A DNA stretch of 64,000 nt from Lachnospiraceae bacterium (lineage in GTDB: Bacteria > Bacillota > Clostridia > Lachnospirales > Lachnospiraceae). The stretch spans positions 1 to 64,000 of the forward strand of contig JAFUKJ010000058.1 in NCBI GenBank assembly GCA_017467805.1, given 5' to 3'. The notes under the pieces were generated by a model. The model did not search any database. It was not told the origin of the DNA and worked only from the letters and a program-made list of their open reading frames with translations. The translations under genes were made by a program, and so were the position numbers. Positions within the stretch are counted from its first letter, which is position 1. Each line of letters starts with the position of its first letter. Positions 29,155 to 50,733 of the stretch are shown piece by piece.

Positions 29155-30249
29155 ATGAATAAAGAGGGAGTTAAGACCTATCTTGTTACAGGTGGAGCAG
29201 GATTTATTGGTTCAAATTATATTCATTATATGTTTAAGAAGTATGGTGATACTATCAGAATTATCAATGTGGATGTATTGACATACGCAGGTAATCTTGA
29301 GAATCTCAAAGCAGTTGAGGATAGAGATAATTACACATTCGTTAAGGCAGATATTACAGATAAGGAAGCGATTGCTAAGATATTTGCTGAGAATGATATC
29401 GACAGAGTAGTACATTTTGCAGCTGAGAGTCATGTTGATAGAAGTATTCGTAATCCAGAGGTTTTCGTACAGACTAATGTACTTGGTACAGCAGTTATGC
29501 TTAACTGTGCAAAGGCAGCATGGGAGTTACCAGATGGCAGCTTCAAGGAGGGTAAGAAGTTCCTTCATGTATCAACAGATGAGGTATATGGTTCTCTTCC
29601 TGATGATGAGAATGCATTCTTCTATGAGACAACACCGTATGACCCACACAGCCCATATTCAGCAAGTAAAGCATCTTCTGATATGTTGGTAAAGGCATAC
29701 ATGGATACCTATAAGTTCCCAGCGAACATTACAAACTGTTCGAATAACTATGGACCTTACCAGTTCCCAGAGAAGCTGATTCCGTTGATTATTAACAATG
29801 CATTACAGGGTAAGAAGCTTCCTGTTTACGGTGATGGTAAGAATGTAAGAGACTGGTTGTTTGTTGAAGACCATGCCAAGGCAATTGATATGGTGCAGGA
29901 GAAGGGAAGACTGTTCGAAACCTACAATGTAGGCGGACACAATGAGAAGCAGAATATTCAGATTATCGAGATTATTCTTGAGACCTTACAGGAGATGCTT
30001 CCTGAGGGAGACCCAAGAAAGGCACATGTTTCCAAGGATTTGATTACTTATGTAGAAGACCGTAAGGGACATGACAGAAGATATGCGATTGCACCAGACA
30101 AGATTAAGGCAGAGATTGGCTGGGAGCCTGAGACAATGTTTGCGGAAGGTATTAAGAAGACTATCGCGTGGTTCTTTGAGAATGAAGAATGGATGAAGAA
30201 CGTTACAAGCGGTGATTACCAGAAGTATTACGAAGAAATGTATAAATAA
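29155..30249 (+). CDS. rfbB: dTDP-glucose 4,6-dehydratase
   Basis: A 364-residue short-chain dehydrogenase/reductase that converts dTDP-glucose to dTDP-4-keto-6-deoxyglucose, the second step towards dTDP-L-rhamnose. It has the NAD-binding TGGAGFIGSNY (about 10-20), VHFAAESHVDRSI, the catalytic STDEVYG triad region and YSASKASSD (Tyr-x3-Lys), NCSNNYGPYQFPEKLIP and NVGGHNEKQN. Length is slightly above the common 340-350 because of an insert around WELPDGSFKEGKK. GGAGG lies before the ATG. It is followed by rfbA, a GH25 gene and rfbC. Confidence 0.96.
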   Translation: MNKEGVKTYLVTGGAGFIGSNYIHYMFKKYGDTIRIINVDVLTYAGNLENLKAVEDRDNYTFVKADITDKEAIAKIFAENDIDRVVHFAAESHVDRSIRNPEVFVQTNVLGTAVMLNCAKAAWELPDGSFKEGKKFLHVSTDEVYGSLPDDENAFFYETTPYDPHSPYSASKASSDMLVKAYMDTYKFPANITNCSNNYGPYQFPEKLIPLIINNALQGKKLPVYGDGKNVRDWLFVEDHAKAIDMVQEKGRLFETYNVGGHNEKQNIQIIEIILETLQEMLPEGDPRKAHVSKDLITYVEDRKGHDRRYAIAPDKIKAEIGWEPETMFAEGIKKTIAWFFENEEWMKNVTSGDYQKYYEEMYK

Positions 30250-30345: not shown

Positions 30346-31224
30346 ATGAAAGGAATTATTTTAGCAGGGGGTTCAGGTACAAGATTATATCCATTAACAA
30401 AGGCAATTTCTAAGCAGATTATGCCAGTATATGATAAACCAATGATTTATTATCCATTATCTACATTGATGCTTGCAGGTATCAGAGAGGTATTGATTAT
30501 TTCAACACCAAGAGATTTACCAGTATTTAAAGAACTGCTGGGAGATGGTTCACAGCTTGGTATGCGCTTTGAGTATGCGATTCAGGAGCAGCCAAGAGGC
30601 TTGGCAGATGCATTTATCATCGGTGAGGAGTTTATTGGTAAGGATGCAGTAGCTCTTGTATTGGGAGATAATATTTTCTATGGACAGAGTTTTTCTAAGC
30701 TGCTAAGAGCGGTAGCTGAGCGCACAGAGAAGGAAGAAGGGGCAACTATTTTTGGTTATTATGTAAGAGACCCTAGAGAATACGGCGTAGTAGAGTTCGA
30801 TGCGAATGGTAATGCATTATCCATTGAAGAGAAGCCTGAGAATCCAAAGAGCAACTATGCAGTGCCTGGCTTATATTTCTATGACAATAGTGTTATTGAG
30901 ATTGCTAAGAATGTAAAGCCTTCAGCGCGTGGAGAGATTGAGATTACAAGTGTGAATAATGAATATCTTAACAGAGGTAACCTTAAGGTAGAGACTATGG
31001 GACGTGGCTTTGCATGGTTAGATACTGGTAATCATGATATGCTTCTTGCAGCAGCTGATTTCGTATCAGCATTCCAGAAGAGACAGGGACTTTATATCTC
31101 ATGTATAGAAGAGATTGCATATAAGCGTGGATTTATTAATAAAGAGCAGCTAATTGAATTGGCACAACCGTTGTTAAAGACAGAATATGGAAAATACTTG
31201 GTAGAGGTTGCGAATGGACTCTAA
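30346..31224 (+). CDS. rfbA: Glucose-1-phosphate thymidylyltransferase
   Basis: A 292-residue nucleotidyltransferase making dTDP-glucose from dTTP and glucose-1-phosphate, the first step of the dTDP-rhamnose pathway. Characteristic motifs: [44 protein letters not shown] at the N-terminus (residues 3-46), [29 protein letters not shown], and [13 protein letters not shown] with [10 protein letters not shown]. Length is normal for RmlA. It begins 96 bp after rfbB, and its stop overlaps the start of the GH25 gene by about 11 bp. The substrate glucose-1-phosphate would be supplied by the mutase at 43827. Confidence 0.97.
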
Positions 31225-32521: not shown

Positions 32522-32533
32522 GAGATGAATGAT

Positions 32534-33091
32534 ATGGGAAAGATTACAGTGGAAACATGTGAGATAGAAGGATTAAAGATTATTACACCAACTGTGTTTG
32601 GTGATAGCAGAGGATATTTCATGGAGTCTTACAATTACAATGACTTCAAGGAGGCAGGAATTGACCATGTGTTTGTACAGGACAACCAGTCTGCTTCTAA
32701 GAAGGGAGTTTTAAGAGGACTTCATTTTCAGAAGAATTATCCACAGGATAAGCTTGTTCGCGTGATTAAAGGTGAGGTTTATGATGTGGCAGTTGATTTA
32801 AGAGAGGGCTCTGAGACTTTTGGAAAGTGGCATGGAGTATTATTATCAGAAGAGAATAAGAAACAGTTCTTTGTTCCAAAGGGATTTGCTCATGGCTTCT
32901 TAGTATTGTCTGATTATGCAGAGTTCTGCTATAAGTGTACGGATTTCTACCATCCAAATGATGAGGGTGGATTGATGTGGAATGATCCTGATATTGGAAT
33001 TGAATGGCCAATTTCAGAAGGCATGGAAATTATTTTGTCTGAGAAAGATAAGGTTCATGGCGGTATCAAGGCATATGTAGAAGGGAAATAG
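32534..33091 (+). CDS. rfbC: dTDP-4-dehydrorhamnose 3,5-epimerase
   Basis: A cupin-fold epimerase of about 185 residues acting third in dTDP-L-rhamnose synthesis. Motifs: DSRGYFMESYN (about 22-32), FVQDNQSASKKGVLRGLHFQ with the catalytic His, KLVRVIKGEVYDVAVDLR, and PKGFAHGFLVLSD. ATG at 32525 also opens the frame, but its ribosome site GGAG (32521-32524) touches it; ATG 32534 has a better spacer. The final enzyme of the pathway, RfbD, is not encoded anywhere in this window, so it must lie elsewhere or the pathway branches to another deoxysugar. Confidence 0.95.
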   Translation: MGKITVETCEIEGLKIITPTVFGDSRGYFMESYNYNDFKEAGIDHVFVQDNQSASKKGVLRGLHFQKNYPQDKLVRVIKGEVYDVAVDLREGSETFGKWHGVLLSEENKKQFFVPKGFAHGFLVLSDYAEFCYKCTDFYHPNDEGGLMWNDPDIGIEWPISEGMEIILSEKDKVHGGIKAYVEGK

Positions 33092-33098
33092 TCTTTCG

Positions 33099-34094
33099 AT
33101 GAAAGCAGGATTATCTAAGAAAACGATTAAAATAATAGTAACCTTGATTGCGTTGATTTTTGCGTTGGTTATTGTATTACATCATAACCCTCTGGCAGTT
33201 CAGCAGGAGGAGAACATTAAGAAGACGATAGCCTGTGTGATTATTGCAGCAGCAGTTTTGGTATTCTGGCGCTTTTACGATAGGATTGTATCATTACCTG
33301 TAGAGCTTTGGCAGTCAAGACATTTGATTTGGAAGCTTGCCAAGAATGATTTTAAGACAAGATATGCAGGCTCTTATCTTGGACGAATCTGGGCGTTTGT
33401 ACAGCCTGTGGTTACAGTGGTCTTATACTGGTTTGTGTTTGATTACATTATGAACGCAAAGAAGGAGTTCTTATCTCAGGGAATAGATGTACCTTATCTG
33501 TTGTGGTTAATGGCAGGTTTGGTTCCGTGGTTCTATTTTTCAGAGGCAATTAATAATGGAATGACTTCTCTTTTGGAGTACAGCTATCTGGTAAAGAAGG
33601 TCGTTTTTAAGATTAGTATTATTCCGATTATTAAGATTATTGCGGCAACCTTTACACATTTATTCTTTGTAGCGTTTATGCTTGTGGTGTATTTTGTCTA
33701 TGGCTACGAGCCAAGTATATATTTGATACAGCTGCCTTATTATACTTTTTGTATGTTTATGATTGTACTGGCAATCAGCTATTCTACCTGTGCAATCGTA
33801 ATATTTTTCAGAGACCTGACGCAGATTGTCAGCATTGCATTACAGATTGGAATGTGGGCAACACCGATTCTTTGGAATATAAACAGATTTGAGAATCCGA
33901 TTGTACAGACGATTATCAAGATTAATCCGATATTTTACATTGTAAATGGATACCGCAGTGCTATGTATGAGCAGACCTGGTTTTGGCAGGATTTTTATTC
34001 TACGATGTATTTTTGGATTGTAACAGTAGTTTTATTTGGCGTGGGAGCGCTTATTTTCCGCAGATTAAAGGTACATTTTGCAGATGTACTGTAA
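33099..34094 (+). CDS. ABC-2 polysaccharide export permease (Wzm/TagG type)
   Basis: A 331-residue permease. The family core starts with LIWKLAKNDFKTRYAGSYLGRIWAFVQPV (about 77-105), then GLVPWFYFSEAI and YLVKKVVFKISIIPI, FFRDLTQIVSIALQIGMWATPILW and NPIFYIVNGYRSAMY. It carries about 70 extra N-terminal residues with two hydrophobic segments that ordinary Wzm proteins lack. Together with the next gene it would export a complete, lipid-linked polysaccharide. It starts 7 bp after rfbC with a weak ribosome site, suggesting translational coupling. Confidence 0.92.
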   Translation: MKAGLSKKTIKIIVTLIALIFALVIVLHHNPLAVQQEENIKKTIACVIIAAAVLVFWRFYDRIVSLPVELWQSRHLIWKLAKNDFKTRYAGSYLGRIWAFVQPVVTVVLYWFVFDYIMNAKKEFLSQGIDVPYLLWLMAGLVPWFYFSEAINNGMTSLLEYSYLVKKVVFKISIIPIIKIIAATFTHLFFVAFMLVVYFVYGYEPSIYLIQLPYYTFCMFMIVLAISYSTCAIVIFFRDLTQIVSIALQIGMWATPILWNINRFENPIVQTIIKINPIFYIVNGYRSAMYEQTWFWQDFYSTMYFWIVTVVLFGVGALIFRRLKVHFADVL

Positions 34095-34119
34095 TAGGCG
34101 TGAGTATGGAGATTGAGAT

Positions 34120-35445
34120 ATGAATCAGCAGCTTGAGGAAATCGCAATTGCGGTAGAAAACGTGAGTAAAGTATATAAGCTTTATGATAAGCCTATGGAT
34201 AGATTAAAGGAATCCTTAGGCTTAACAAAAGAGAAGAAGTATCGGGAGCATTTTGCACTTTCAGATGTAAGCTTTCATGTGAAGAAGGGCGAGTGTCTTG
34301 GTATTATTGGAACGAATGGTTCGGGTAAGTCTACAATACTTAAGATTATAACAGGCGTTTTGAATCAGACTAGCGGTAATGTGAATGTACAAGGACGAAT
34401 TTCAGCTTTATTGGAGCTGGGAGCTGGTTTTAATATGGAATATACAGGCATGGAGAATATTTACCTGCAAGGTACAATGAATGGTTTTTCGGAACAGGAG
34501 ATTGATGAGCGTTTGCAGGATATTCTCGATTTTGCAGATATCGGAGATTTTGTGAATCAGCCATGTAAGACGTATTCCAGTGGTATGTTTGTACGTCTGG
34601 CATTTTCGGTAGCGATTAATATTGAGCCTGAGATTTTGATTGTAGATGAGGCACTATCTGTAGGTGACGTATTCTTCCAGGCAAAGTGTTATCATAAGTT
34701 TGACGAGTTCAAGGAGATGGGCAAGACCATTATCTTTGTAAGTCATGATTTGAGCAGTATTGCCAAGTATTGTGACAGAGTTATCCTTTTGAATCGTGGT
34801 ACGAAGCTTGGAGAGGGTTCGGCAAAGGATATGATTGATGACTTTAAAAGGGTTCTTGTAGGTCAGTATGAACTGCCTGAGTCTAAGTCTGAGAATAGCC
34901 TGTTGAATGACGCTGACATACAGGCAGCAGTCAAAAAGGATAAGACAGAGGAAGATAAGCCAAAGCTTTTAGAGTATGGTACAAAGAGTGCTGTCATAGA
35001 AGAGATATATCTTACGGATGATAGAGGTACCCGTTCGAATTCAATTATTAAGGGCAGTGAGTTCAATATTCATATGCGTGTACGCTTTGAAGAGAATCTT
35101 CCTGCACCGATTTTTGCATTTTCTATTAAGAATGCGAAGGGTACGGAGATTACAGGAACCAATACCATGTTTGAAAAGGCATTTCTTGAGCCTGTTAAGG
35201 CTGGTGTGGTAAAGGATATTACATTTACACAAAAGATGTCTCTGCAGGGAGGAGAGTATCTTCTTTCCTTTGGTGTTACAGGCTATGATGGAAATGATTT
35301 TCAGGTATATCATAGATTATATGATGCGTTAGATATAACGGTTATTTCGGATAAGAATACAGTTGGCTATTATGATATGGATACCACGATTAAGGTAGAG
35401 GATGTCGTAGAGAAGGACAACGTAATTCAATATAAAAAGGCATAA
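34120..35445 (+). CDS. ABC polysaccharide exporter ATPase with Wzt-type carbohydrate-binding C-terminus
   Basis: A 441-residue ATPase. The nucleotide-binding domain (1-245) has Walker A GTNGSGKST (about 65-73), the TagH/Wzt-typical ARISALLELGAGFNMEYTGMENIYL-like stretch, the signature YSSGMFVRLAFSVA, Walker B ILIVDEALSVGD and the switch FVSHD. Residues 285-440 form an Ig-like Wzt_C domain: GTKSAVIEEIYLTDDRG, then MSLQGGEYLLSFGV. In O9a/O12-type exporters this domain reads the modified end of a finished glycan before export. The gene directly downstream encodes a methyltransferase-kinase fusion, the enzyme class that makes such an end cap. GGAGATTGAG precedes the ATG. Confidence 0.93.
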   Translation: MNQQLEEIAIAVENVSKVYKLYDKPMDRLKESLGLTKEKKYREHFALSDVSFHVKKGECLGIIGTNGSGKSTILKIITGVLNQTSGNVNVQGRISALLELGAGFNMEYTGMENIYLQGTMNGFSEQEIDERLQDILDFADIGDFVNQPCKTYSSGMFVRLAFSVAINIEPEILIVDEALSVGDVFFQAKCYHKFDEFKEMGKTIIFVSHDLSSIAKYCDRVILLNRGTKLGEGSAKDMIDDFKRVLVGQYELPESKSENSLLNDADIQAAVKKDKTEEDKPKLLEYGTKSAVIEEIYLTDDRGTRSNSIIKGSEFNIHMRVRFEENLPAPIFAFSIKNAKGTEITGTNTMFEKAFLEPVKAGVVKDITFTQKMSLQGGEYLLSFGVTGYDGNDFQVYHRLYDALDITVISDKNTVGYYDMDTTIKVEDVVEKDNVIQYKKA

Positions 35446-35457
35446 GGAGCATTCCCC

Positions 35458-37488
35458 ATGATGGAGAAGATAGGAAAGATAGTACTGGATATGACATATT
35501 ATCCAGGAGAAGATAAATATTCAGATGGAGCAATAGAGGATGAGTTATTGGAGATTATTCAGAATCATCCTGTAGAGGAGTATCCTGAGATTATAGAGAA
35601 GAAGAAAAGCTGGCCGATATTTTATCATTTATCACCATTCAGAACAAACATTATAGACTGGCTTCCGATTAAGAAGACAGACAGAGTGTTGGAAATTGGC
35701 TCGGGTTGTGGTGCTCTTACAGGAGCATTAGCAAAAAAGGCAGCACATGTAACATGTATTGAGTTGTCTAAGAAGCGAAGCCTTATGAATGCGTATCGTA
35801 ATCAGGATAAGGATAATATTACAATTATGGTAGGTAACTTCCAGGAGATTGAGCCTCATCTTCCTTGTGATTATGACTATGTTCTCTTAGTTGGAGTGTT
35901 TGAGTATGGACAGTCCTATATTGGTGGAGCTACGCCATACGAAGATTTTATGAGAATTTGTAATCAGCACCGTGGTAAAGACGGTAAGATGATTATTGCG
36001 ATTGAGAATAAATTTGGCTTGAAATACTGGGCAGGCTGTCGGGAAGACCATAATGCACAGTTTTTCTCAGGTATCGAAGGTTATCCTCATGGTGGTTCAG
36101 CCAGAACCTTTACTAAAAAGGGATTGGAAAAGATTATGAAGACGGTTGGAATTAGTGAGTACTCTTTCTATTATCCATACCCTGATTATAAGTTTATGTC
36201 AACCATCTATTCGGACCAGTACCTTCCTAAGAAAGGTGAGCTTTCTACCAACTTGAGAAACTTTGACAGAGATAGAATGCTTTTATTTGATGAAAAACGT
36301 GCGTTTGACCAGATAATAGATGAAGAGGAGTTTTCATTATTTTCAAACTCCTATCTGGTAGTAGTAGGAAAAGCTCCAGAGTGTGTATATTGTAAGTTTT
36401 CTAATGATAGAGCAAAGCCTTGGGCGATTAGGACTTCTATTATGAGAAATACCTTTGGGGATTTGCATGTTGAGAAGGCGCCAGATACAATGGCGGCAGT
36501 ACCTCATTTGAAGAACACGCGTAAGGCATATGATTTATTATCAACGCGTTATAAAGGGACTAAGGTAGTGATTAATCAGTGCAAGACTATGACATCAGCT
36601 TTGTATTTTCCATTCTGTAAGGGAAAGACTTTAGAGGAGCTTTTGGACGGATGTCTTGATAAGGCAGATATTTCAGGCTTTAAGGCATTGGTTGATGAGT
36701 ATATGAAGTGGCTTTCCTATGGTGAAGGTGAAACTGTCAGCAATTTGGACTTTGTATTTCCTAATATTTTGGTGGATGGAGATAAGTGGCATGTCATTGA
36801 TTATGAGTGGACCTTTGAAAAGCTGATTCCGTCAAAGGAAATTGCATTTAGAGCCTTTTATAACTATATGTTAGGTGGTGGCAATAGAGAGAATTGCCGA
36901 GACCTGTTGTTTGGAGATATTCTTCAAATGACAGATGCCCAGATAGAGGAATATATCCAGAACGAAAAGGATTTCCAAAAGTATATTACAGGGCAGCGAG
37001 CTGCAGTAGGAGATATGCGAGAGCTTATCGCGAATAAGGTATACGATATAGCAACGATAGAAAGTATTTTTGCAGACAATGCAGCAAGACAGATTTCACA
37101 GGCATTCTTTGATTGTGGAAGTGGATATTCAGAGGAGAACTCACTTTTAATCAGAGACAGCTTTGTGCAAAAGGATTTGATTGTTTCCAAAGTAGCATTG
37201 CCTGAAGGTATTAAGAGCTTTCGCTTTGACCCATGGTCTTTTGACGGTGTTGTCCGTATAGAAGAACTGAGTGTAGATGGTGTACCATATACACGGGAGC
37301 AGATTCAGGTAAATGGCAGATGGTTGGATGATAATTATATTGTTTTTGCGACAGAGGACCCGAATATTATAGTGGCCTGTGAAGGAGCAAGGGAGGTTTC
37401 CTTGAGGCTAAGGATTTATGGAATGCCAGAGGGCTTGTCAGCATTGCTGGTGCCAGAGGATTCTAAGAAAAGAAAGAAGCTGTTTTAG
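35458..37488 (+). CDS. Methyltransferase-kinase fusion, WbdD-like putative glycan chain terminator
   Basis: A 676-residue soluble protein. The N-terminal half is a class I SAM methyltransferase with motif I VLEIGSGCGALTGALA (about 77-92), acidic post-I IELS and VLLVGVFEY. From about residue 320 comes a kinase-like domain. A candidate nucleotide Lys340 lies in HVEKAP, a hinge FPFCKGKTLEELL follows, a catalytic-loop pattern D431-x4-N436 lies in NLDFVFPNIL, and a metal-binding D448 in VIDYEW stands where DFG is usual. About 100 helical residues and a beta-rich C-terminus (about 580-660) follow. The same order of domains and the position beside a Wzm/Wzt_C exporter match WbdD, which caps E. coli O9a glycan by phosphorylation and methylation. 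No coiled-coil ruler as long as WbdD's is obvious. The kinase call is by motif only. Confidence 0.75.
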   Translation: MMEKIGKIVLDMTYYPGEDKYSDGAIEDELLEIIQNHPVEEYPEIIEKKKSWPIFYHLSPFRTNIIDWLPIKKTDRVLEIGSGCGALTGALAKKAAHVTCIELSKKRSLMNAYRNQDKDNITIMVGNFQEIEPHLPCDYDYVLLVGVFEYGQSYIGGATPYEDFMRICNQHRGKDGKMIIAIENKFGLKYWAGCREDHNAQFFSGIEGYPHGGSARTFTKKGLEKIMKTVGISEYSFYYPYPDYKFMSTIYSDQYLPKKGELSTNLRNFDRDRMLLFDEKRAFDQIIDEEEFSLFSNSYLVVVGKAPECVYCKFSNDRAKPWAIRTSIMRNTFGDLHVEKAPDTMAAVPHLKNTRKAYDLLSTRYKGTKVVINQCKTMTSALYFPFCKGKTLEELLDGCLDKADISGFKALVDEYMKWLSYGEGETVSNLDFVFPNILVDGDKWHVIDYEWTFEKLIPSKEIAFRAFYNYMLGGGNRENCRDLLFGDILQMTDAQIEEYIQNEKDFQKYITGQRAAVGDMRELIANKVYDIATIESIFADNAARQISQAFFDCGSGYSEENSLLIRDSFVQKDLIVSKVALPEGIKSFRFDPWSFDGVVRIEELSVDGVPYTREQIQVNGRWLDDNYIVFATEDPNIIVACEGAREVSLRLRIYGMPEGLSALLVPEDSKKRKKLF

Positions 37489-37502: not shown

Positions 37503-39569
37503 ATGATTAAGAAGGTAAAAGCAGCCATTCAGGATAGGATATATCAGAATTGTATAAGTGAGTATCAAAATGCCTTGCAGTGTCAGTCAGATCCATATTT
37601 GGCATGGATTCGCGAGACAGAGATGATACCTGAGAAAGAGGGAGTAGAGGAGTCTTATCCCTCTCTTTCTGTTGTATACATGGAGCAATGTGCGGAGAGC
37701 TTTCAGTTGTCTGATGTGAAGCAGGAGATAGTTGTATTTGTTTCTAAAGAAGGCAAAATTTCAGTTTGTGCATTTAAAGAGATTGTGAAGTATTTTGAAA
37801 AGCATCAGGATATAGATATTGTCTATGCCGACGAAGATATCTGGATGCTTCCTGAGGGCGGGGATGAGGAGCCTGATAATGAAATTACACATCGTATGTC
37901 ACCATGGATGAAGCCGATGTGGTCTCCTGATACCTTATTTTCCTTCCAATATTTTGGTAATATTTTTGCGATTCGGAAGTCTGCATTTTTGGATTTGAAG
38001 TGGCTGGCTCAGGAGGACTGGCGCCATAATCTTTATGATTTTGTTTTGCAGGCAACAGCGCAGGGAAAAAGGGCAGGACATATTGAAAAGATTCTGTTCC
38101 ATGCATACCGCAAGGGTAAAGACAAAGCTGCTGTTGAGCAGGAAGTGATGCTGGAGAGAAAGCTTTGGGGAGCAGATTCGGATTATGACTATATCAGAGA
38201 GCTTGCTTTAGACAGACGTAATCTCAAGGCAACATTAGTGAAGGATGAGAAGACAGGATATTCTTATCCTTTATATCGGATAGATGGGAATCCGCTTGTC
38301 AGCATTATTATTCCTTCTAAGGATAATGTGGACGTGTTAAGACAGTGTATTCGCTCAATATACCATAAAACAGAGTATAAGAACTTTGAGATAATTGTCA
38401 TAGATAATGGTAGTACGGCACAGGCAAGAATGACCTTGGAGAGCTTTAGGGAGGAATGCCCGTTCACTTATCTCTATCAGCCGATGGAGTTTAATTTCTC
38501 TAAAATGTGCAATATTGGTTTGAAGAAGGCACAGGGGGAATATGTATTACTGTTAAATGATGATATGGAGGTTATAGAAGAAAGCTGGCTTACCCGTATG
38601 CTGGGACAGGCTACACTTTCTCATGTAGGGGCGGTAGGCGCAAAGCTGTTTTACCCGAATACGACCTTGATACAGCATGCAGGAATCACAAATACCTGTG
38701 ATGGACCAGGACATAAGCTTCGCAAGATGGACGATACACAGGTTTATTATTATGGTAGAAATAAGCTTATATATGATATGATTGGCGTTACGGCGGCATG
38801 TCTTTTGATGAAAAAGTCCTTATTGGAGTCTATGGGTGGTTTGTATGAAGGCTTGAAGGTAGCTTATAATGACGTAGATTTATGCTTTAGAATTATTCAG
38901 AAGGGCTTATATATTGTACAGCGAAATGATGTTATATTGTATCATCATGAGTCTCTAAGCAGAGGCGATGATTTACAGGATAAGGCAAAGATTGCAAGGC
39001 TGTTGGCAGAGAAGGATGTGCTATTTGAAAGACATCCTAAGCTGTATCGTCAGGACCCGTTTGTAGGATGGGTTATGAATAGTGGTGAGCCAGAATATGA
39101 TTGCCGATGGATAGACGGCTATGAGCTTGCGGATATTATCGGTTATGAAGATAAAGTAACAGAGAGTAAGCCGTTGCCTAATATGAAACGTGTGAATCAG
39201 GCAATTATGATTACCATGGAGGAATGCGGAAAAGCGGAGTATCAGCGTACAGGTGCCAAGGGAAAGGGCTATTATATGTTAAAGGGATGGGCATTTGTTC
39301 CTGGAGCAGATAATGCCAGATATGAGATGAAGCTTTTACTTCGTAATCCTAAGGGAAAGGTATGGGAAATTCCAGTTGCTAAGCGTTATCGTAAGGATGT
39401 AGCCGCAATTATGGAAGACCAGATAAACGTAGAAATGACAGGCTTCTGTTGTTGGATATATGAGGGAACACTTCCTTCAGATACCTATGAGATATGGATG
39501 ACAGCAAAGGATGCCTGCTCGAGACAAAGACTTTATAGAAGCTCTGAGACCAGTTTGGTAATAGAGTAG
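37503..39569 (+). CDS. Large GT2 glycosyltransferase with eroded N-terminal module
   Basis: A 688-residue cytosolic protein. Residues about 70-235 look like the second half of a GT2 module: a YADED acidic motif near residue 109, then MKPMWSPDTLFSFQYFGN and IEKILFHAYRK. The nucleotide-binding first half is unrecognisable. The full GT2 module starts at about residue 264 (PLVSIIIPSKDN), with VIDNGST, NFSKMCNIGLKKAQGEYVLLLNDDMEV (about 330-356) and NDVDLCFRI (about 455). The last ~90 residues form a beta-rich domain. It probably adds one sugar, likely rhamnose given the rfb genes, to the ABC-exported polymer. A G-rich site precedes the ATG. Confidence 0.85.
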   Translation: MIKKVKAAIQDRIYQNCISEYQNALQCQSDPYLAWIRETEMIPEKEGVEESYPSLSVVYMEQCAESFQLSDVKQEIVVFVSKEGKISVCAFKEIVKYFEKHQDIDIVYADEDIWMLPEGGDEEPDNEITHRMSPWMKPMWSPDTLFSFQYFGNIFAIRKSAFLDLKWLAQEDWRHNLYDFVLQATAQGKRAGHIEKILFHAYRKGKDKAAVEQEVMLERKLWGADSDYDYIRELALDRRNLKATLVKDEKTGYSYPLYRIDGNPLVSIIIPSKDNVDVLRQCIRSIYHKTEYKNFEIIVIDNGSTAQARMTLESFREECPFTYLYQPMEFNFSKMCNIGLKKAQGEYVLLLNDDMEVIEESWLTRMLGQATLSHVGAVGAKLFYPNTTLIQHAGITNTCDGPGHKLRKMDDTQVYYYGRNKLIYDMIGVTAACLLMKKSLLESMGGLYEGLKVAYNDVDLCFRIIQKGLYIVQRNDVILYHHESLSRGDDLQDKAKIARLLAEKDVLFERHPKLYRQDPFVGWVMNSGEPEYDCRWIDGYELADIIGYEDKVTESKPLPNMKRVNQAIMITMEECGKAEYQRTGAKGKGYYMLKGWAFVPGADNARYEMKLLLRNPKGKVWEIPVAKRYRKDVAAIMEDQINVEMTGFCCWIYEGTLPSDTYEIWMTAKDACSRQRLYRSSETSLVIE

Positions 39570-39596: not shown

Positions 39597-41627
39597 ATGA
39601 ATCACAAGACCTACGAACAAATCCTATTGGAGCAGCAAACACCTTATTTGCAATGGCTTAAAGAGCATAAATGTGAATATGATTATGATTCAATATCTGA
39701 AAAAAAAGAGGGAAGCGTATTGTACCTTCCCTTCTTTGCTTGCGTTGATGATTTTATGGAAAGATATGAGAATGAGATTTCGCAGAGCAGTATTATTATT
39801 TTAACATCGGATTTGGGTTATGCTCATGAGCACATTAAGAGAATTGTTGCGAATTACTTTGATAATAATTCGGAGATAGATTTAATGTATGCGGATGAGG
39901 ATTATCTTGGAAGCTTACAGGAATTATACGGTGTAGAAGAGACAGCTCTGACAAAGGAATATCGTTTCAGAGATACCAGCTTGTATCGGGGACGTCCATG
40001 GTTTAAGCCAGAGTATTCTCCTGATACTTTATTGTCCTTTTTTTACTTTGGAAATGTGATTGCCTTTCGTACGGAACTTCTTAGGAAGGTGCATTGGCTT
40101 GGAAGTAAGAATGACTTTGAAAATATCTATGATGCTGTATTGCAAATGACCGAACTGACTTCTGGTATTGGTCATCTTGCAGAGGTATTGTTCACAAATA
40201 AGCATCTCAACAGAGAATTGGAATTACGAGGTGTGCAAGAAAAACTTGCAAAAATAAAACAGAGAGCCTTGGAAAGAAGAGGTTGTGAAGGCAAAACTTC
40301 AAATGAACAAAAAGAAGTCGAAATTTCGTATATTTTATATACAATTCCGCAGGGTGCGGCAGTATCGATAGTAATTCCCAGTAAAGACAATGCAAAAGTA
40401 TTGGAACGGTGTCTGGATACGCTGATAGCTAAGACAAAAGGTGTAAGCTATGAAGTAATTGTAGTAGATAATGGAAGTAGTGAAGCTCAGCAGATGATGA
40501 TTGGAAAGCTGCAGGAGAAATATGGCTTTCAATATCTTTATGAAAAAGAAGAATTTAATTTCTCAAGGATGTGTAATCGCGGTGCTAGAGCTGCGAAAGG
40601 AAACTATCTTCTGTTTTTAAACGATGATGTTGAAATTATAGATGAATACTGGTTGGAAAGAATGCTTGGACAGGCTGCACAGCCATGGACAGGAGCAGTA
40701 GGTGCAAAGCTCTATTACCCAGATAACGATGAGATACATCGTATTCAGCATGTGGGAATTACCAATATGGGAATCGGACCTGCCCATAAGCTTGGTGGAA
40801 TGAAGGACGAAGGTGTTCTTTATCACGGGCATAATTGTCTGACCTATAACATGCTTGCGGTAACTGCGGCATGCCTTCTGGTAAAGCGTGAGTGCTTTGA
40901 TAAGGTGCAGGGCTTTGATGAGGAGTTGGCAGTTGCATATAATGATGTAGCTTTTTGTATGAAGTTATTTGAGGCAGGCTATTATAATGTCATCAGAAAT
41001 GATGCAGTCTTAATTCATCATGAGTCACTTAGCCGTGGTCAGGACGATACTGACGAGAAGAAGCAGCGATTGGCAAAGGAAAAGGCTCTTTTGTATGAGA
41101 AACACCGCAGATTTGACGGCTACGACCCTTTTTACAGCAGACATTTGGTACAATATAAAAAGGATGTAGATTATCACTGTCATTATTTGTATCCATATGA
41201 TATGATAGGGAAAATTGAAGCCGTCGAAAGATTACCGAGATTATACAGGAATAAGCTGTTGAGAAAGCTTTCTGGTCAGCAGCTTTCTATGGCTAATATA
41301 GATGCTGTCACGGATGAAGCAGATATCCTGACGATTACAGGCTGGTATGTACTGCAGAGGTATGACAATGCATTATTGGATAAGTATCTGATTTTACAGA
41401 ATCAGGAAAGTGGTCATACGCTAAGAGTAAAAGCCGAGCCTTGGTTAAGGAAGGATGTAGCCAGCATCTTTGCAGAGTCTGAGGGAACGCTTCGCACAGA
41501 GCTTGCAGGAATATATGTCCATATAGATAAAACGCAATTGCCAAAGGGCGAGTATCGTATTGGGGTGCTGGCATGCGGCGATAAAATACAAAGGCTTTGT
41601 TGGACGGATGCGCTAATAAGGTTATAA
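39597..41627 (+). CDS. Large GT2 glycosyltransferase, paralogue of the preceding gene
   Basis: A 676-residue protein of the same architecture as its upstream neighbour. An eroded N-terminal GT2 remnant has YADED (about 99), WFKPEYSPDTLLSFFYFGN and a truncated end. A complete GT2 module follows from about 254 (AVSIVIPSKDN, VVDNGSS, NFSRMCNRGARAAKGNYLLFLNDDVEI, AVTAACLLVKREC, NDVAFCMKL). A C-terminal beta domain beginning near ADILTITGWYV completes it. Final motif NDVAFC has Ala where most relatives have Asp (NDVDLC), a possible change in the catalytic site. GGAGG at 39585-39589 sets the start. The close similarity of the two proteins indicates tandem duplication. Confidence 0.85.
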   Translation: MNHKTYEQILLEQQTPYLQWLKEHKCEYDYDSISEKKEGSVLYLPFFACVDDFMERYENEISQSSIIILTSDLGYAHEHIKRIVANYFDNNSEIDLMYADEDYLGSLQELYGVEETALTKEYRFRDTSLYRGRPWFKPEYSPDTLLSFFYFGNVIAFRTELLRKVHWLGSKNDFENIYDAVLQMTELTSGIGHLAEVLFTNKHLNRELELRGVQEKLAKIKQRALERRGCEGKTSNEQKEVEISYILYTIPQGAAVSIVIPSKDNAKVLERCLDTLIAKTKGVSYEVIVVDNGSSEAQQMMIGKLQEKYGFQYLYEKEEFNFSRMCNRGARAAKGNYLLFLNDDVEIIDEYWLERMLGQAAQPWTGAVGAKLYYPDNDEIHRIQHVGITNMGIGPAHKLGGMKDEGVLYHGHNCLTYNMLAVTAACLLVKRECFDKVQGFDEELAVAYNDVAFCMKLFEAGYYNVIRNDAVLIHHESLSRGQDDTDEKKQRLAKEKALLYEKHRRFDGYDPFYSRHLVQYKKDVDYHCHYLYPYDMIGKIEAVERLPRLYRNKLLRKLSGQQLSMANIDAVTDEADILTITGWYVLQRYDNALLDKYLILQNQESGHTLRVKAEPWLRKDVASIFAESEGTLRTELAGIYVHIDKTQLPKGEYRIGVLACGDKIQRLCWTDALIRL

Positions 41628-41653: not shown

Positions 41654-43645
41654 ATGGAGAAGGAATGGAAAACACCTGAGGAAGAGCTTGCTTTTTATAA
41701 AGAGGCGTATCAGCAGGAAAAGGTTAGAAGTGCGTCATTGGCAGGAAGACTTGCTGATGCAAAAAATGAGGCTGACAACTTACAGTTTCAGTTAGATAGA
41801 ATTAAGAATAATCCTGTATGGAAGGCGTCAGCGCCACTACGAATGGGGATGCACAGAGGAATCAACCTATATCGCAGAGTAAGAAATGTAGGAGGACCTC
41901 GAAATATTGTAAGAAAGCTGAAGCAGAAGCAAAGAGATAATGGTATCAAATTACAGCATGGAACTGCAAGTTTCCCGACAGCAGAGGAAGCGGCAAGACA
42001 GCGAGAGACCAGGTTTGAGCATCCCGTTAAAATCAGTATTTTAGTTCCTCTTTGGAATAATAAGAGAGAGTTTCAGATAGAGATGATAGAGTCTGTTATG
42101 AATCAGACCTATGAGAATTGGGAGCTTTGTCTGGCGGATGGTTCTGATGCTGAGCATAATTATATAGAAGAAATCTGTAAGGAATACGCTGCAAAGGCAA
42201 ACGGAAGAATCGTATATAAGCGTCTGGAGAAGAATGGCGGTATCGCAGGGAATACCAATGAGTGCCTGAAGCTTGCAACGGGTGAATATATCGGCTTGTT
42301 TGACCAGGACGATGTTCTTCATCCATCAGTTTTATATGAGTATGTAAAGGTAATTAATGAGCAGAATGCGGATTATATTTATTGTGATGAGACTACCTTT
42401 AAGGGAGATAGCATCAACAATATGCTGACACTGCATTTTAAGCCAGATTTTTCTATTGATAATCTAAGAGCGAATAATTATATTTGCCATTTTAGTGTAT
42501 TTTCAAGAGAGTTACTGGATGGAACTGAGCTTTTTAGAAGCGGCTTTGATGGCAGTCAGGACCATGATATGATTCTTCGCCTTACAGCCAATGCCAAGCA
42601 TATCGTGCATGTGCCGCGTATTATGTATTACTGGAGAAGCCATGCAGGCAGCGTGGCAAGTGGTATTGATGCGAAGCCATATGCAGTACCAGCGGCAAAG
42701 GGAGCAGTAGCAGAGCACTTACGCAAGTGTGGGTTTGCAAACTTTGAGATTAAGAGTACCCGTGCGTTTGATACTATCTTTGAGATTAAGTATGAAATAA
42801 AGAGCGAGGATAAGATTTCTATTCTGATTCCGAATAAGGACCATGTAGATGATTTGAAGCGCTGTATTTCTTCCATACTGGAGCGTTCTACCTATGAGAA
42901 TTATGAAGTTATTATCATAGAGAATAACAGTACCCAGAAGGCAACCTTTGATTATTATAAGACCTTAGAGGGGAATCCAAAGATTCGCGTGGTTACCTAT
43001 GAGGGTGAGTTTAATTACTCTAAGATTAATAATTTTGGTGCGCAGTATGCAGATGGTAAGTATTTGCTGCTTCTGAATAATGACACACAGGTTATTACGA
43101 TGAATTGGCTTGAGGCAATGCTTATGTACGCTCAGCGAGAGGATGTCGCAGCAGTAGGAGCAAAGCTATACTATGAGGATAAGTCCATACAGCACGCAGG
43201 TATTGTATTAGGACTGGGAGCTCATAGAACGGCAGGTCATACTCATTATAAGATGGGAATGGATAACCTTGGATATATGGGAAGGCTTTGTTATGCGCAG
43301 AACGTATCTGCGGTAACAGGTGCCTGTCTGATGGTAAAGAAGGCACTTTACGATGAGGTTGGCGGTCTGGATGAAGGCTTTAAGGTGGCACTTAATGATG
43401 TGGATTTATGCCTGAAGCTTAGAGAAAAAGGCTATTTGAATGTATTTACTCCGTTTGCGGAGTTGTATCATTTTGAGTCTGCTTCAAGAGGCAGTGACGT
43501 TCAGGATACTGCAAAGGCAGAGCGCTACAACGAAGAGTGTGCAGTGTTTAAGGAGAAATGGGCAAAGGTGCTTGAAAAGGGTGACCCGTATTATAATCCG
43601 AATTTCTCATTAGACCATAGCGATTATTCACTAAGAGCTTTTTAG
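41654..43645 (+). CDS. Bifunctional tandem GT2 glycosyltransferase
   Basis: A protein of about 663 residues with two complete GT2 modules. A short coiled region precedes the first module (about 125-360). That module has KISILVPLWNN, CLADGSD, NGGIAGNTNECLKLATGEYIGLFDQDD (about 196-222) and VPRIMYYWRSHAGS. The second (about 386-640) has KISILIPNKDH, IIENNST, NYSKINNFGAQYADGKYLLLLNNDTQV, AVTGACLMVKKAL and NDVDLCLKL. Two active sites imply that it adds two sugars or alternates linkages. The open frame begins at 41597 within the previous gene, but ATG 41654 with ACGGAG at 41641-41646 is the likely start. It appears to be the intact form of the family represented by its neighbours. Confidence 0.9.
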   Translation: MEKEWKTPEEELAFYKEAYQQEKVRSASLAGRLADAKNEADNLQFQLDRIKNNPVWKASAPLRMGMHRGINLYRRVRNVGGPRNIVRKLKQKQRDNGIKLQHGTASFPTAEEAARQRETRFEHPVKISILVPLWNNKREFQIEMIESVMNQTYENWELCLADGSDAEHNYIEEICKEYAAKANGRIVYKRLEKNGGIAGNTNECLKLATGEYIGLFDQDDVLHPSVLYEYVKVINEQNADYIYCDETTFKGDSINNMLTLHFKPDFSIDNLRANNYICHFSVFSRELLDGTELFRSGFDGSQDHDMILRLTANAKHIVHVPRIMYYWRSHAGSVASGIDAKPYAVPAAKGAVAEHLRKCGFANFEIKSTRAFDTIFEIKYEIKSEDKISILIPNKDHVDDLKRCISSILERSTYENYEVIIIENNSTQKATFDYYKTLEGNPKIRVVTYEGEFNYSKINNFGAQYADGKYLLLLNNDTQVITMNWLEAMLMYAQREDVAAVGAKLYYEDKSIQHAGIVLGLGAHRTAGHTHYKMGMDNLGYMGRLCYAQNVSAVTGACLMVKKALYDEVGGLDEGFKVALNDVDLCLKLREKGYLNVFTPFAELYHFESASRGSDVQDTAKAERYNEECAVFKEKWAKVLEKGDPYYNPNFSLDHSDYSLRAF

Positions 43646-48053: not shown

Positions 48054-49451
48054 TTGATAAAAGATAATCAGAAATATTTTAATAGCTTACTTGTTTTACT
48101 GGACGCGATTGTTGTCGTAATAACATATCTGCTTGCACATTTTTTGTGGGTAAGTCAGAAGGCTCCTGAGACAGGAGTATTAGCGGTAGAGATTTATTAT
48201 TCTGCGTTGATTGTGATTGTGCCTGCATATTTAATTTTATATAATACCTTTGAGCTGTATACACCCAAGCGTACGTCGAAGAGTGTATATGAGCTTTTTA
48301 ATATCATTCAGGCAAATGTCAGCGGATTGTTGTTAATCATGGTAGTTCTGTATGCAGTGAAGCAGCCTGACTTTTCCAGAGGAATGATTGGATTGTTCTT
48401 CTGCATGAATACGGTGGCAGATTATCTCATGCGTAGAGGCGTGCGTTTCTGCCTGCGTTTTGCGCGTAAGAAGGGCTATAATCTGAAGCACATTCTGTTG
48501 GTGGGATATTCCCGTGCAGCAGAGGCATATATAGATAAGCTGCAGGCGAATCCACAGTGGGGATATGTAGTCAATGGTATTTTAGATGACGAGATTCCAA
48601 GAGGGACCAAATACCGAGGCGTTAAGGTTATAGGTGATATTGAGAATCTTGAACTGATTCTTCCTGAGAATAAGTTGGATGAGATAGCAATAACACTATC
48701 TTTGGAGAACTATGGAAGATTGGAGAATATTGTTAAGATTTGTGAGAAGTCTGGTGTACATACTAAGTTTATACCAGATTATAACAGATTGATTCCAACC
48801 AATCCTTATTTGGAGGATTTGGGAGGACTGGCAGTTGTAAATATAAGACGAGTACCGCTTACTAATACAGCGAATATGATAGTTAAGAGAGTGATGGATA
48901 TTTTTGGTGCGCTTATAGCTATTATTATTTCGTCGCCGATTATGCTGGTTGCAGCGATTGGTGTTAAGACAACAAGTAAGGGACCGTTAATTTTTAAGCA
49001 GGAAAGAGTAGGGCTTCATAATAAGCCGTTTATGATGTATAAATTCCGTACGATGGAGGTTCAGCCTGTGGAGGAAGAGAAGCTTGGCTGGACGAAGAAG
49101 CATGACCCTCGTGTAACCAGGATTGGCCGTGTTTTGCGTAAGACCAGTATTGATGAGCTTCCTCAGTTTTTTAATGTACTCAAGGGTGATATGAGTATGA
49201 TTGGTCCAAGACCAGAGAGACCTCATTTTGTAGAGAAGTTTAAGGAAGAGATTCCACGCTATATGATTAAGCATCAGGTTCGTCCAGGTATAACAGGATG
49301 GGCGCAGGTAAATGGTTATCGTGGTGATACTTCTATCCGTAAGAGAATAGAGTTTGATTTGTATTATATAGAGAATTGGACAGTTGGATTCGATTTGAAG
49401 ATATTGTTCTTAACATTCTTTAAAGGTTTTATCAATAAGAATGCATACTAA
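48054..49451 (+). CDS. Undecaprenyl-phosphate glucose/hexose phosphotransferase (second initiating enzyme)
   Basis: A 465-residue enzyme of the polyprenyl glycosylphosphotransferase family: four or five N-terminal membrane helices, a CoA-binding-like Rossmann domain with ILLVGYSRAAEAYIDKL (about 144-160), and the catalytic domain from about 275. The latter shows KRVMDIFGALIAI, GPLIFKQERVGLHNKPF, MYKFRTM, RKTSIDELPQFFNVLKGDMSMIGPRPERPHFV and RPGITGWAQVNGYRGDT. The IGPRPERP form is typical of the WcaJ/EpsL glucose-type group, unlike the enzyme at 14553. It starts with TTG (48054) after AAGGGTGA. It would begin the glycan, or its linkage unit, of the second locus and is followed by the LCP ligase. 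Confidence 0.92.
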   Translation: MIKDNQKYFNSLLVLLDAIVVVITYLLAHFLWVSQKAPETGVLAVEIYYSALIVIVPAYLILYNTFELYTPKRTSKSVYELFNIIQANVSGLLLIMVVLYAVKQPDFSRGMIGLFFCMNTVADYLMRRGVRFCLRFARKKGYNLKHILLVGYSRAAEAYIDKLQANPQWGYVVNGILDDEIPRGTKYRGVKVIGDIENLELILPENKLDEIAITLSLENYGRLENIVKICEKSGVHTKFIPDYNRLIPTNPYLEDLGGLAVVNIRRVPLTNTANMIVKRVMDIFGALIAIIISSPIMLVAAIGVKTTSKGPLIFKQERVGLHNKPFMMYKFRTMEVQPVEEEKLGWTKKHDPRVTRIGRVLRKTSIDELPQFFNVLKGDMSMIGPRPERPHFVEKFKEEIPRYMIKHQVRPGITGWAQVNGYRGDTSIRKRIEFDLYYIENWTVGFDLKILFLTFFKGFINKNAY

Positions 49452-49464
49452 GGGAGAGAAAGAA

Positions 49465-50733
49465 ATGGATGATAATAGGAGAATGGATGGAGGAAACAGA
49501 CCTTCACCCAATAAGGCACGTGCAAACGGAGGAGGTAAGCGTCCACCGAAGGGAGGCAGACCACCACAGGGAGGCAGACCACCGAGGGGTGGAAGACCAC
49601 AGGGAGGCAGACCACCGCAGAATGGCAGACCACCACAGCCACCTCGCAGAAAGCCACCAAAGAGAGCAAAGAAGGGCAGCAAGATTGCTTTATTTATAAT
49701 TGAGATATTGGTATTATTAATTTTGTTGGTTGTATTCTGGGGAGCTTCTAAGGCAAGTCAGATTCAGTATATCGAGATTGCGGATGAAGAGATTGAGATT
49801 AACGAACAGGTTAAGGAAGCGACTGAGACTGGTGCATTAAAGGGATATAGGAATATTGTTTTTTATGCAGTGGATTCTAACGATAAAGAGTTAACGAAGA
49901 ATACCCGTTCAGATACGATGAAGATTATTTCTATTAATCAGGATACCAAAGAGATTAAGATGGTGTCATTGCTTCGTGATAGCTATGTGAATACTGGAAC
50001 AGACAGCTACGGCAAGGCAAATGTTGCCTATGCTAAGGGAGGTCCGAAGCAGTCTATTAGTATGATTAATATGAATCTGGATCTTAATGTTACAGATTTT
50101 GTTACAGTTGGTTATGATGCTGTAATTGATGGAATCAATGCACTTGGAGGCGTTGAGATTGATGTTCAGGAGGATGAGATTGAGCATTTAAATAACTATC
50201 AGATGAGTATTGTGGGTGAACCTACAGGAACCTACAATGCAGCTGGAGAGCCTAATTATTATGCGGAAGCATGGGTTGAGTATATACCTGTTACAGAGCC
50301 TGGCTTGCAGACATTGGATGGCTTACAGGCGGCAGCTTATTGCCGTATTCGTTATGTAGGTAATGATTTCAAACGTGTTGAGCGACAGAACAATGTTATG
50401 AAGGCTGCATTTAAGAAGGCTTTGACTTTTGATTTGGGTAAGCTCAATAAGATTGCAGAAGCAGTATTCCCGAAGATTTCTACTTCTCTTGAGCTGAGTG
50501 AGATTCTTGAGCTTATGAGTAGTGCATTGGGATATGAGATAGGTGAGTCGCAGACATTCCCATACACTTACGCAGATGAGACTATTAACAGAGGAAGAGT
50601 ACTTGTTCCGAATACATTGGAGTCAAACGTAACACAGTTACATGAGTTCCTATTTGGAATAGAGGACTACCAGCCATCTGATACGGTTAAGAGAATCAGT
50701 GACAAGATATTAAAGGATGCAGGATTAAAATAG
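49465..50733 (+). CDS. LytR-CpsA-Psr (LCP) family ligase with cationic Gly/Pro/Arg-rich cytosolic tail
   Basis: A protein of about 422 residues. Residues 1-72 are a disordered, strongly basic tail with repeated GGRPPQ units, followed by one membrane helix (about 75-96). The extracellular LCP domain (about 120-345) shows NIVFYAVDSNDKELTKNTRSDTMKIISINQDTKEIKMVSLLRDSYV, AYAKGGPKQSISMINMNLDLNVTDFVTVGYDAVIDGINALGGVEIDV and AYCRIRYVGNDFKRVERQ. The RSDT and LLRD arginines and acids bind the pyrophosphate head. LCP proteins attach polyprenyl-linked glycan to peptidoglycan, the expected last step for this locus. ATG 49465 follows AGGGAG (49451-49456); the frame also opens at 49441. Confidence 0.92.
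   Translation: MDDNRRMDGGNRPSPNKARANGGGKRPPKGGRPPQGGRPPRGGRPQGGRPPQNGRPPQPPRRKPPKRAKKGSKIALFIIEILVLLILLVVFWGASKASQIQYIEIADEEIEINEQVKEATETGALKGYRNIVFYAVDSNDKELTKNTRSDTMKIISINQDTKEIKMVSLLRDSYVNTGTDSYGKANVAYAKGGPKQSISMINMNLDLNVTDFVTVGYDAVIDGINALGGVEIDVQEDEIEHLNNYQMSIVGEPTGTYNAAGEPNYYAEAWVEYIPVTEPGLQTLDGLQAAAYCRIRYVGNDFKRVERQNNVMKAAFKKALTFDLGKLNKIAEAVFPKISTSLELSEILELMSSALGYEIGESQTFPYTYADETINRGRVLVPNTLESNVTQLHEFLFGIEDYQPSDTVKRISDKILKDAGLK
49552..49638 (+). repeat. Tandem 15/18-bp repeats encoding GGRPP units
   Basis: Five consecutive units close to GGAGGCAGACCACCACAG (one shortened to 15 bp), coding for G-G-R-P-P-Q/R. They lie in the cytosolic tail of the LCP protein. Their purine-rich, near-identical DNA makes length variation likely. 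Confidence 0.88.

Follow-up and report, generated by a model that had tools for sequence, protein, structure and literature searches.

What might end the growth of a cell wall glycan in a Gram-positive bacterium that carries a Wzm/Wzt-type ATP-binding cassette (ABC) exporter? The question is raised by a locus of a Lachnospiraceae bacterium, contained in the 64,000-nucleotide stretch analyzed here (the window; positions 1 to 64,000 of JAFUKJ010000058.1, part of contig C49 of a 2.99-Mb draft genome). On the plus strand, three open reading frames (ORFs) form one close-packed run: a Wzm-type ABC-2 permease of 331 residues (33099..34094; Pfam ABC2_membrane, E = 2.7e-17), a Wzt-type ATPase of 441 residues (34120..35445; ABC_tran, 3.8e-22; Wzt_C, 2.2e-41), and a 676-residue methyltransferase-kinase (35458-37488; ORF call). 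A Wzt_C search placed the Wzt_C domain, the putative cap reader, at 34972-35379. ORF call and Pfam and, for the third protein, residue conservation and structure models bear out the three proteins as a first-pass annotation of the sequence had described them. We consider it likely that the third protein is a terminator of the ORF6^O7 kind, whose kinase would phosphorylate and whose methyltransferase would methylate the chain end, with the resulting cap stopping growth and being read by Wzt_C.

Domains and conserved residues of the 676-residue protein

Pfam recognized methyltransferase families alone in the 676-residue protein (best RrnaAD, 6.2e-9; Methyltransf_25, 3.3e-6), and residues 1 to 304 (35458..36369) were assigned to the methyltransferase part from these matches and from residues matching ORF6^O7. 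Among 40 family members, Pkinase was found in 5 (best 4.9e-6) and APH in 1 (0.02). We then looked at conservation in a 65-row alignment of relatives. The kinase elements singled out in the first-pass annotation proved to be real: K340 was kept in 64 rows (the other having an X), and D431, N436, and D448, together with G389, were kept in all 65. The methyltransferase residues Y21, G83, and Y150 were also found in 65/65 rows and Y56 and G81 in 64/65 (one X each), while position 102 (E102 in the window) was D or E throughout. The kinase has a further invariant residue, His350 (65/65), in the long helix that comes next to the K340 strand in the chain, on its C-terminal side.

An AlphaFold model of the whole protein (mean predicted local distance difference test [pLDDT], 90.1) contained methyltransferase, kinase-like, and beta domains; in residues 309 to 545, strands and helices follow one another much as in a kinase. 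A second model, covering residues 305 to 676 (pLDDT, 90.6), again gave kinase-like and beta domains, and its best 50 Foldseek matches included RIO1/RIO2, Bud32/PRPK, macrolide phosphotransferases, and JAK kinases (best match E = 6.7e-6, probability 1.00; template modeling [TM] score by query, 0.25 to 0.37). Residues 320 to 480, where a fold unlike that of a kinase would have spoken against the first-pass annotation, are kinase-like according to both AlphaFold and Foldseek. On the strength of residue conservation and fold, we set aside a chance kinase motif. From conservation, models, and hhalign, we delimited the kinase part to residues 305 to 545 (36370..37092; K340, D431, N436, and D448). 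The beta domain that follows (residues 546 to 665; 37093..37452) rests on strands in both models and on an alignment with a Pseudomonas asturiensis protein (see below); it is probably a glycan-binding module, possibly of the carbohydrate-binding type. The protein ends with a short basic tail and the stop codon (37453..37488), without a coiled coil according to the AlphaFold model, a coil score, and the alignment. The beta module also matched the ORFs L145:1912-4020, L145:5037-7286, L146:11559-13967, and L126:5590-6912 (E of 2e-4 to 1e-10), two of which show glycosyltransferase similarity, and this fits a portable glycan-binding module.

Relatives of the locus (numbered with an L; best 80 of 396 matched) are mainly in Lachnospiraceae records, the nearest, L003, being 87% identical. 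In a methyltransferase tree, the fused coil-less form made up one clade (16 rows, support 100/95). Since the deep forks were weak and L148 and L119 had long branches, the direction of change was not taken from this tree.

Relationship to ORF6^O7 and to other chain terminators

The first-pass annotation had compared the protein to WbdD, the methyltransferase-kinase of Escherichia coli O9a. Foldseek with the whole model indeed placed WbdD structures 4azt, 4uw0, 4azw, 4ax8, and 4azs at ranks 3, 4, 6, 7, and 14 of the best 50 matches (best E = 3.1e-9; 12 to 13% identity), the remaining matches being methyltransferases without a kinase. The WbdD alignments extended over 439 to 559 columns, more than the methyltransferase alone, and both domains therefore appear to be covered. 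Like the window protein, WbdD consists of a methyltransferase followed by a kinase and is paired with a Wzt that has a cap-reading domain, and its cap is a methyl phosphate (PMC3482155, partial text). Unlike WbdD, the window protein lacks the C-terminal coil that serves WbdD as a ruler and has an extra beta domain (PMC3482155, partial text). WbdD chains were absent from the best 60 of 97 Protein Data Bank sequence matches of the window-family profile, from the best 60 of 70 of the kinase profile, and from the best 50 Foldseek matches of the kinase-plus-beta model. WbdD is a good functional analogy, and its match to the window protein is a structural one.

By sequence, the nearest known family appears instead to be that of the ORF6^O7 terminator. 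ORF6^O7, from Klebsiella pneumoniae O7, is described as comprising a methyltransferase, an unannotated AmiN-like kinase, an immunoglobulin (Ig)-like module, a coiled coil, and two GT2 modules. The enzyme places methyl phosphate on O-3 of the terminal rhamnose, and its D441A mutant has lost kinase activity (PMC11231755, partial text). According to the same partial text, some orthologues stop after the coil, so the GT2 modules are optional. A tblastn search of a plasmid collection matched two records. One, a P. asturiensis plasmid, encodes wzm, wzt (Wzt_C, 2.1e-29), and a 1,457-residue protein with the ORF6^O7 layout, in which Pfam found a methyltransferase and two GT2 stretches, with kinase, beta, and coil parts in between. 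The other, from Citrobacter braakii, combines rml genes, wzm, and wzt with a relative of 649 residues, in which residues 562 to 601 score as a coil. Y28, Y66, G91, G93, E112, and Y158 of the P. asturiensis protein bear exactly the numbers published for ORF6^O7, and the catalytic Asp is residue 443 in the former and 441 in the latter (PMC11231755, partial text); the window counterparts are Y21, Y56, G81, G83, E102, Y150, and D431. The link to ORF6^O7 is made through these published residue numbers and through the close relative from P. asturiensis, not through the ORF6^O7 sequence itself.

We then compared kinase profiles with hhalign. In the one pair compared, the window family matched an ORF6^O7-like group of five proteins (P. 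asturiensis, C. braakii, and three Bacillota fusion proteins) with a probability of 98%, an E value of 2.8e-13, and 19% identity. The beta part of the window family aligned with that of P. asturiensis; its fold was searched as part of the whole model and of the kinase-plus-beta model. The methyltransferase residues and the kinase profile both tie the window protein to the ORF6^O7-like group, and on this basis we set aside an independent origin as well as descent from WbdD. The first-pass annotation had left the choice between independent invention and transfer, and the comparison speaks for shared descent or transfer with ORF6^O7, with the methyltransferase, the kinase, and probably the beta domain as homologous parts.

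The likeness to ORF6^O7 extends from the order of methyltransferase, AmiN-like kinase, and, probably, beta/Ig-like module to the presence of rml, wzm, and wzt genes in the locus (PMC11231755, partial text). Compared with the same description, the window terminator has neither a coil nor glycosyltransferase modules in its chain; a separate protein, termed GTc, carries a coil together with two GT2 domains, and two further GT2 proteins lie between; and the host is Gram-positive by kinship, with a LytR-CpsA-Psr (LCP) protein in the cluster. The protein is best filed as a rearranged ORF6^O7 relative, without a coil in the same chain and with one on another protein.

Two other terminators are relevant. 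The O8-type WbdD of E. coli O8 and Klebsiella O5 is likewise a methyltransferase terminator of an ABC-exported glycan but is described as having no kinase domain (PMC3482155 and PMC11231755, partial texts). WsaE of Geobacillus stearothermophilus is closer in setting, being Gram-positive, acting on a rhamnan, and adjoining wzm/wzt; its methyl cap is thought to stop the chain and to be bound by Wzt (PMC2943079, partial text). WsaE differs in that the methyltransferase is fused to two glycosyltransferase domains, and no kinase is mentioned in that text; in the window protein, a kinase is present and the glycosyltransferase domains are outside the chain. Going by that partial text, the WsaE methyl cap precedes the window as a capping system in a Gram-positive bacterium, and ORF6^O7 is an earlier example of a kinase followed by an Ig-like module (PMC11231755, partial text). 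Our literature search found no phosphate-type terminator in a Gram-positive bacterium and no variant of the present kind, with the limit that such loci may be named in a survey of chain-termination chemistry from 2019 (Mann, Kimber, and Whitfield).

Pairing of the enzyme with one type of Wzt_C

In the window, Wzm and a Wzt with a C-terminal carbohydrate-binding domain (Wzt_C, 2.2e-41) adjoin the predicted terminator, as in polymerase-terminator systems that use ABC export. This arrangement recurs in the relatives: wzt is the nearest recognized gene upstream of the enzyme in 79 of the 80 loci, within 400 bases in 78 of them and at about 600 bases in L079, and the 80th locus, L069, begins at a contig edge.

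We then searched the same 99 genomes for both the enzyme family and Wzt_C, using the strongest 53 of 70 family-profile rows. The enzyme was found downstream of 44 of the 45 Wzt_C domains scoring above 90 bits (43 within 191 bases and one at 2,214) and of 0 of the 18 scoring below. No Wzt_C was found upstream of 9/53 family rows, which comprise three contig ends, one kinase part whose locus had its place in the count through another row, and five real cases. Comparison to the Wzt_C of the window gave a similar picture. All 25 rows scoring 135 to 346 bits, a set that includes the window itself and in which L020 and L168 are one sequence by scores, are in enzyme-bearing loci (about 4 kb off in L146), compared to 0 to 29 bits for 17/17 unlinked rows, one of which is the other Wzt of the window's genome. 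Four rows had been removed from this scoring by a length or score filter, namely, L149 and L161, where the Wzt_C is unlinked, as well as L143 and L115. The pairing is as expected of a reader matched to a cap, but operon inheritance would give part of it. The cap-and-read logic proposed in the first-pass annotation is well supported by the survey.

The family is sparse outside this group, its profile being matched in 9 of 299 sampled genomes of the phylum, the window's genome included. We also found methyltransferase-kinase relatives in two glycosyltransferase-rich loci, at L120:7505-9184 and L122:7309-8250 plus 8247-9335. These versions have neither a beta domain nor a coil, and no Wzm/Wzt was present in the 16 to 19 kb fetched, which suggests, from two cases, that the beta domain and the coil serve the ABC route. 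L122 (15505-17850) also encodes a protein of 781 residues, one part of which is methyltransferase-like and the end of which looks cytidylyltransferase-like by eye. Across many genomes of the genus, the same query region is matched by open frames of mostly 737 to 791 residues.

A coiled coil on the downstream glycosyltransferase

Coils were predicted with a home-made heptad score with its own weights and a 99% threshold derived from 282 globular proteins that these loci encode; this score missed a coil-looking, repeat-rich stretch of L142 and fired in 21/85 GTa/GTb proteins (see below). It detected no coil in the window terminator, whose C terminus has strands between residues 547 and 655 in the model, so a beta-rich end without a long coil, as first described, holds. 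Scores above threshold were obtained for 20/80 relatives of the terminator, but all 21 segments were inside the kinase part and were rejected as terminator coils. Outside the window's lineage, a coil was found behind the kinase/beta part in 12/14 relatives tested, L142 and L146 being the others; in L146, the kinase-beta protein is coil-less. When the methyltransferase is an ORF of its own, the next ORF carries the kinase (11/11 relatives). In L113, the kinase, beta, coil, and two GT2 domains make up one 1,035-residue chain whose GT2 part scores 793 bits to GTc, and the kinase part is also fused to GT2 domains in L147 and P. asturiensis.

The window terminator is followed on the plus strand by GTa (688 residues; 37503..39569; Glycos_transf_2, 4.9e-20), GTb (676 residues; 39597..41627; 7.6e-22), which is borderline on the coil score (0.59), and GTc (41654..43645; 9.2e-45, two stretches), a putative polymerase with a coiled coil followed by two GT2 domains. 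GTc was taken to start at the ATG at 41654, a longer frame from the TTG at 41597 was also called, and residues are numbered from 41651. The coil score of GTc exceeds the threshold at residues 24 to 54, and an N-terminal coil was found in all 63 relatives scoring above 800 bits. This set was picked by similarity to the window GTc (>800 bits, >600 residues) and may favor equal length.

The distance from Y16 to W57, which covers the tip motif and the coil (41696..41821), is 42 residues in 63/63 relatives, and residues 16 to 177 contain no indel. Absence of indels is not rare in GTc, being seen in 66/101 overlapping 42-residue segments, and the 14 such segments with an identity no higher than that of the coil all start between residues 16 and 94, where mean identity (41 to 57%) is the lowest of the protein. 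Y20, E23, I51, W57, and R64 are invariant in 64 rows, and Y16 and A19 are kept in 95%. A regular expression for the tip motif caught 51/64 rows; the misses were mostly motif variants or long N-terminal extensions, and column counts were therefore used. A W(K/R)xSxPLR-like stretch follows the coil, the pattern being met in 49/63. In 7 of the 64 loci with downstream room, no plus-strand GTc above 800 bits was present within 8 kb. Weaker versions were found on the same strand in L047 and L053 (557 bits) and not on the plus strand in L036, L046, L048, and L058 (533 to 563 bits); none was listed downstream in L065.

A coil-less terminator together with a coil on a downstream double-GT2 protein looks new, and a way of measuring length other than a terminator coil, as the first-pass annotation had suggested, is in line with it. 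Tentatively, and not without doubt, we propose that the ruler is on the polymerase: a GTc rod of fixed length with a conserved tip (Y16, A19, Y20, and E23) might hold the separate methyltransferase-kinase at a set distance. Such a polymerase-borne ruler, if true, would divide between two proteins what the O7 machine does in one chain, and glycan length would be set in a new way.

Proposed mechanism and alternatives

From the observed domains and gene pairing, we infer the following order of events. The glycan would be begun on a lipid carrier and extended by GT2 enzymes. The kinase would phosphorylate the nonreducing end of this lipid-linked, probably rhamnose-containing glycan, by analogy with Klebsiella O7, and the methyltransferase would then methylate that phosphate, a step demonstrated for Klebsiella O7 (PMC11231755, partial text). 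The cap would halt growth by the GT2 enzymes and be recognized by the Wzt_C of the neighboring exporter, as the pairing of the enzyme with one Wzt_C type supports; after export, the LCP protein would probably attach the chain to the wall. The coil-less terminator would need either to bind GTc or to associate with the membrane through its basic tail. Such a system would bring the phosphate-plus-methyl cap logic, proven in Gram-negative O antigens, to gut Gram-positive bacteria, and the Wzt_C type may allow the cap to be predicted from sequence. Through natural rearrangements, the kinase, the beta domain, the coil, and the GT2 domains can be recognized as parts of one set, and the split arrangement, with a polymerase-borne coil, opens the question of the ruler to testing.

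Several observations weigh against a terminator whose cap is read by Wzt_C. No Pfam kinase family was found in the kinase part of the window protein, and the TM scores by query are low (0.19 to 0.22 for WbdD and 0.25 to 0.37 in the kinase search), in part because the models span several domains. The 90-bit line was set after the scores were known, and a Wzt_C of 106.9 bits in genome G046 has no enzyme. Five family places (G014:C74, G027:C8, G024:C11, G023:C3, and G037:C42) have no upstream Wzt_C despite room for it; therefore, the enzyme is not bound to ABC export everywhere. The ATPase halves differ as well (341 to 535 bits in linked compared to 229 to 340 bits in unlinked rows), so the pairing is partly plain kinship. 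Last, the Wzt_C domains of the linked fusion-group rows L127, L128, L141, and L142 score just 5 to 41 bits to that of the window, and the reader therefore differs in these loci.

Alternatively, the protein could add methyl phosphate to internal residues or side chains without ending the chain, the Wzt_C pairing being a matter of operon inheritance. Such decoration would suit the family members in loci where no Wzm/Wzt was seen, the L120 and L122 versions without beta domain and coil, the lack of a coil in the window terminator itself, and the parallel difference between linked and unlinked ATPase halves. We nevertheless find it unlikely, as the enzyme pairs with one type of Wzt_C and as the kinase part is fused to GT2 domains, for instance in L113, L147, and P. 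asturiensis, just as in the proven terminator ORF6^O7.

An inactive kinase, or one with another target, would leave a cap made of methyl alone, as for WsaE or the O8 WbdD. The absence of a Pfam kinase family in the window agrees with this, but K340, D431, N436, and D448 are kept in 64 to 65 of 65 rows, and D431 is the counterpart of the ORF6^O7 residue whose D441A mutant is dead (PMC11231755, partial text), which makes a methyl-only cap quite improbable. We give very little credence to a true WbdD orthologue that has lost its coiled coil: WbdD is the sole methyltransferase-kinase among the best 50 Foldseek matches, but its chains are missing from the listed Protein Data Bank sequence matches and from the kinase-plus-beta Foldseek matches, and profile homology points to the ORF6^O7-like group.

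Other features of the locus

Rhamnose genes lie upstream of wzm on the plus strand: RmlB (29155..30249; 386.9 bits to an ORF annotated rffG in C. braakii), RmlA (30346..31224; 408.5 bits to rfbA), and RmlC (32525..33091; 227.4 bits to rfbC). RmlD above the curated cutoff was located outside the window in the same genome (G000:C97). Downstream of GTc are a phosphohexomutase, more GT2 proteins, a polyprenyl-phosphate sugar-1-phosphate transferase as the initiator candidate (48054..49451, plus strand; Bac_transf, 4.7e-72), and the LCP protein, a candidate for wall attachment (49441..50733, plus strand; LytR_cpsA_psr, 1.2e-29). The window contains two Bac_transf initiators (14553-15974 and 48054-49451), which suggests that two distinct glycan assembly lines are encoded next to each other.

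At 26381-29083, the window encodes a GH25 protein of 900 residues that combines strongly acidic EYYEDEE repeats and Ser/Glu repeats with a Big_2 domain and a choline-binding repeat, and a second GH25 gene lies between rmlA and rmlC. Most relatives with enough flanking sequence have a GH25 gene immediately upstream of rmlC or wzm.

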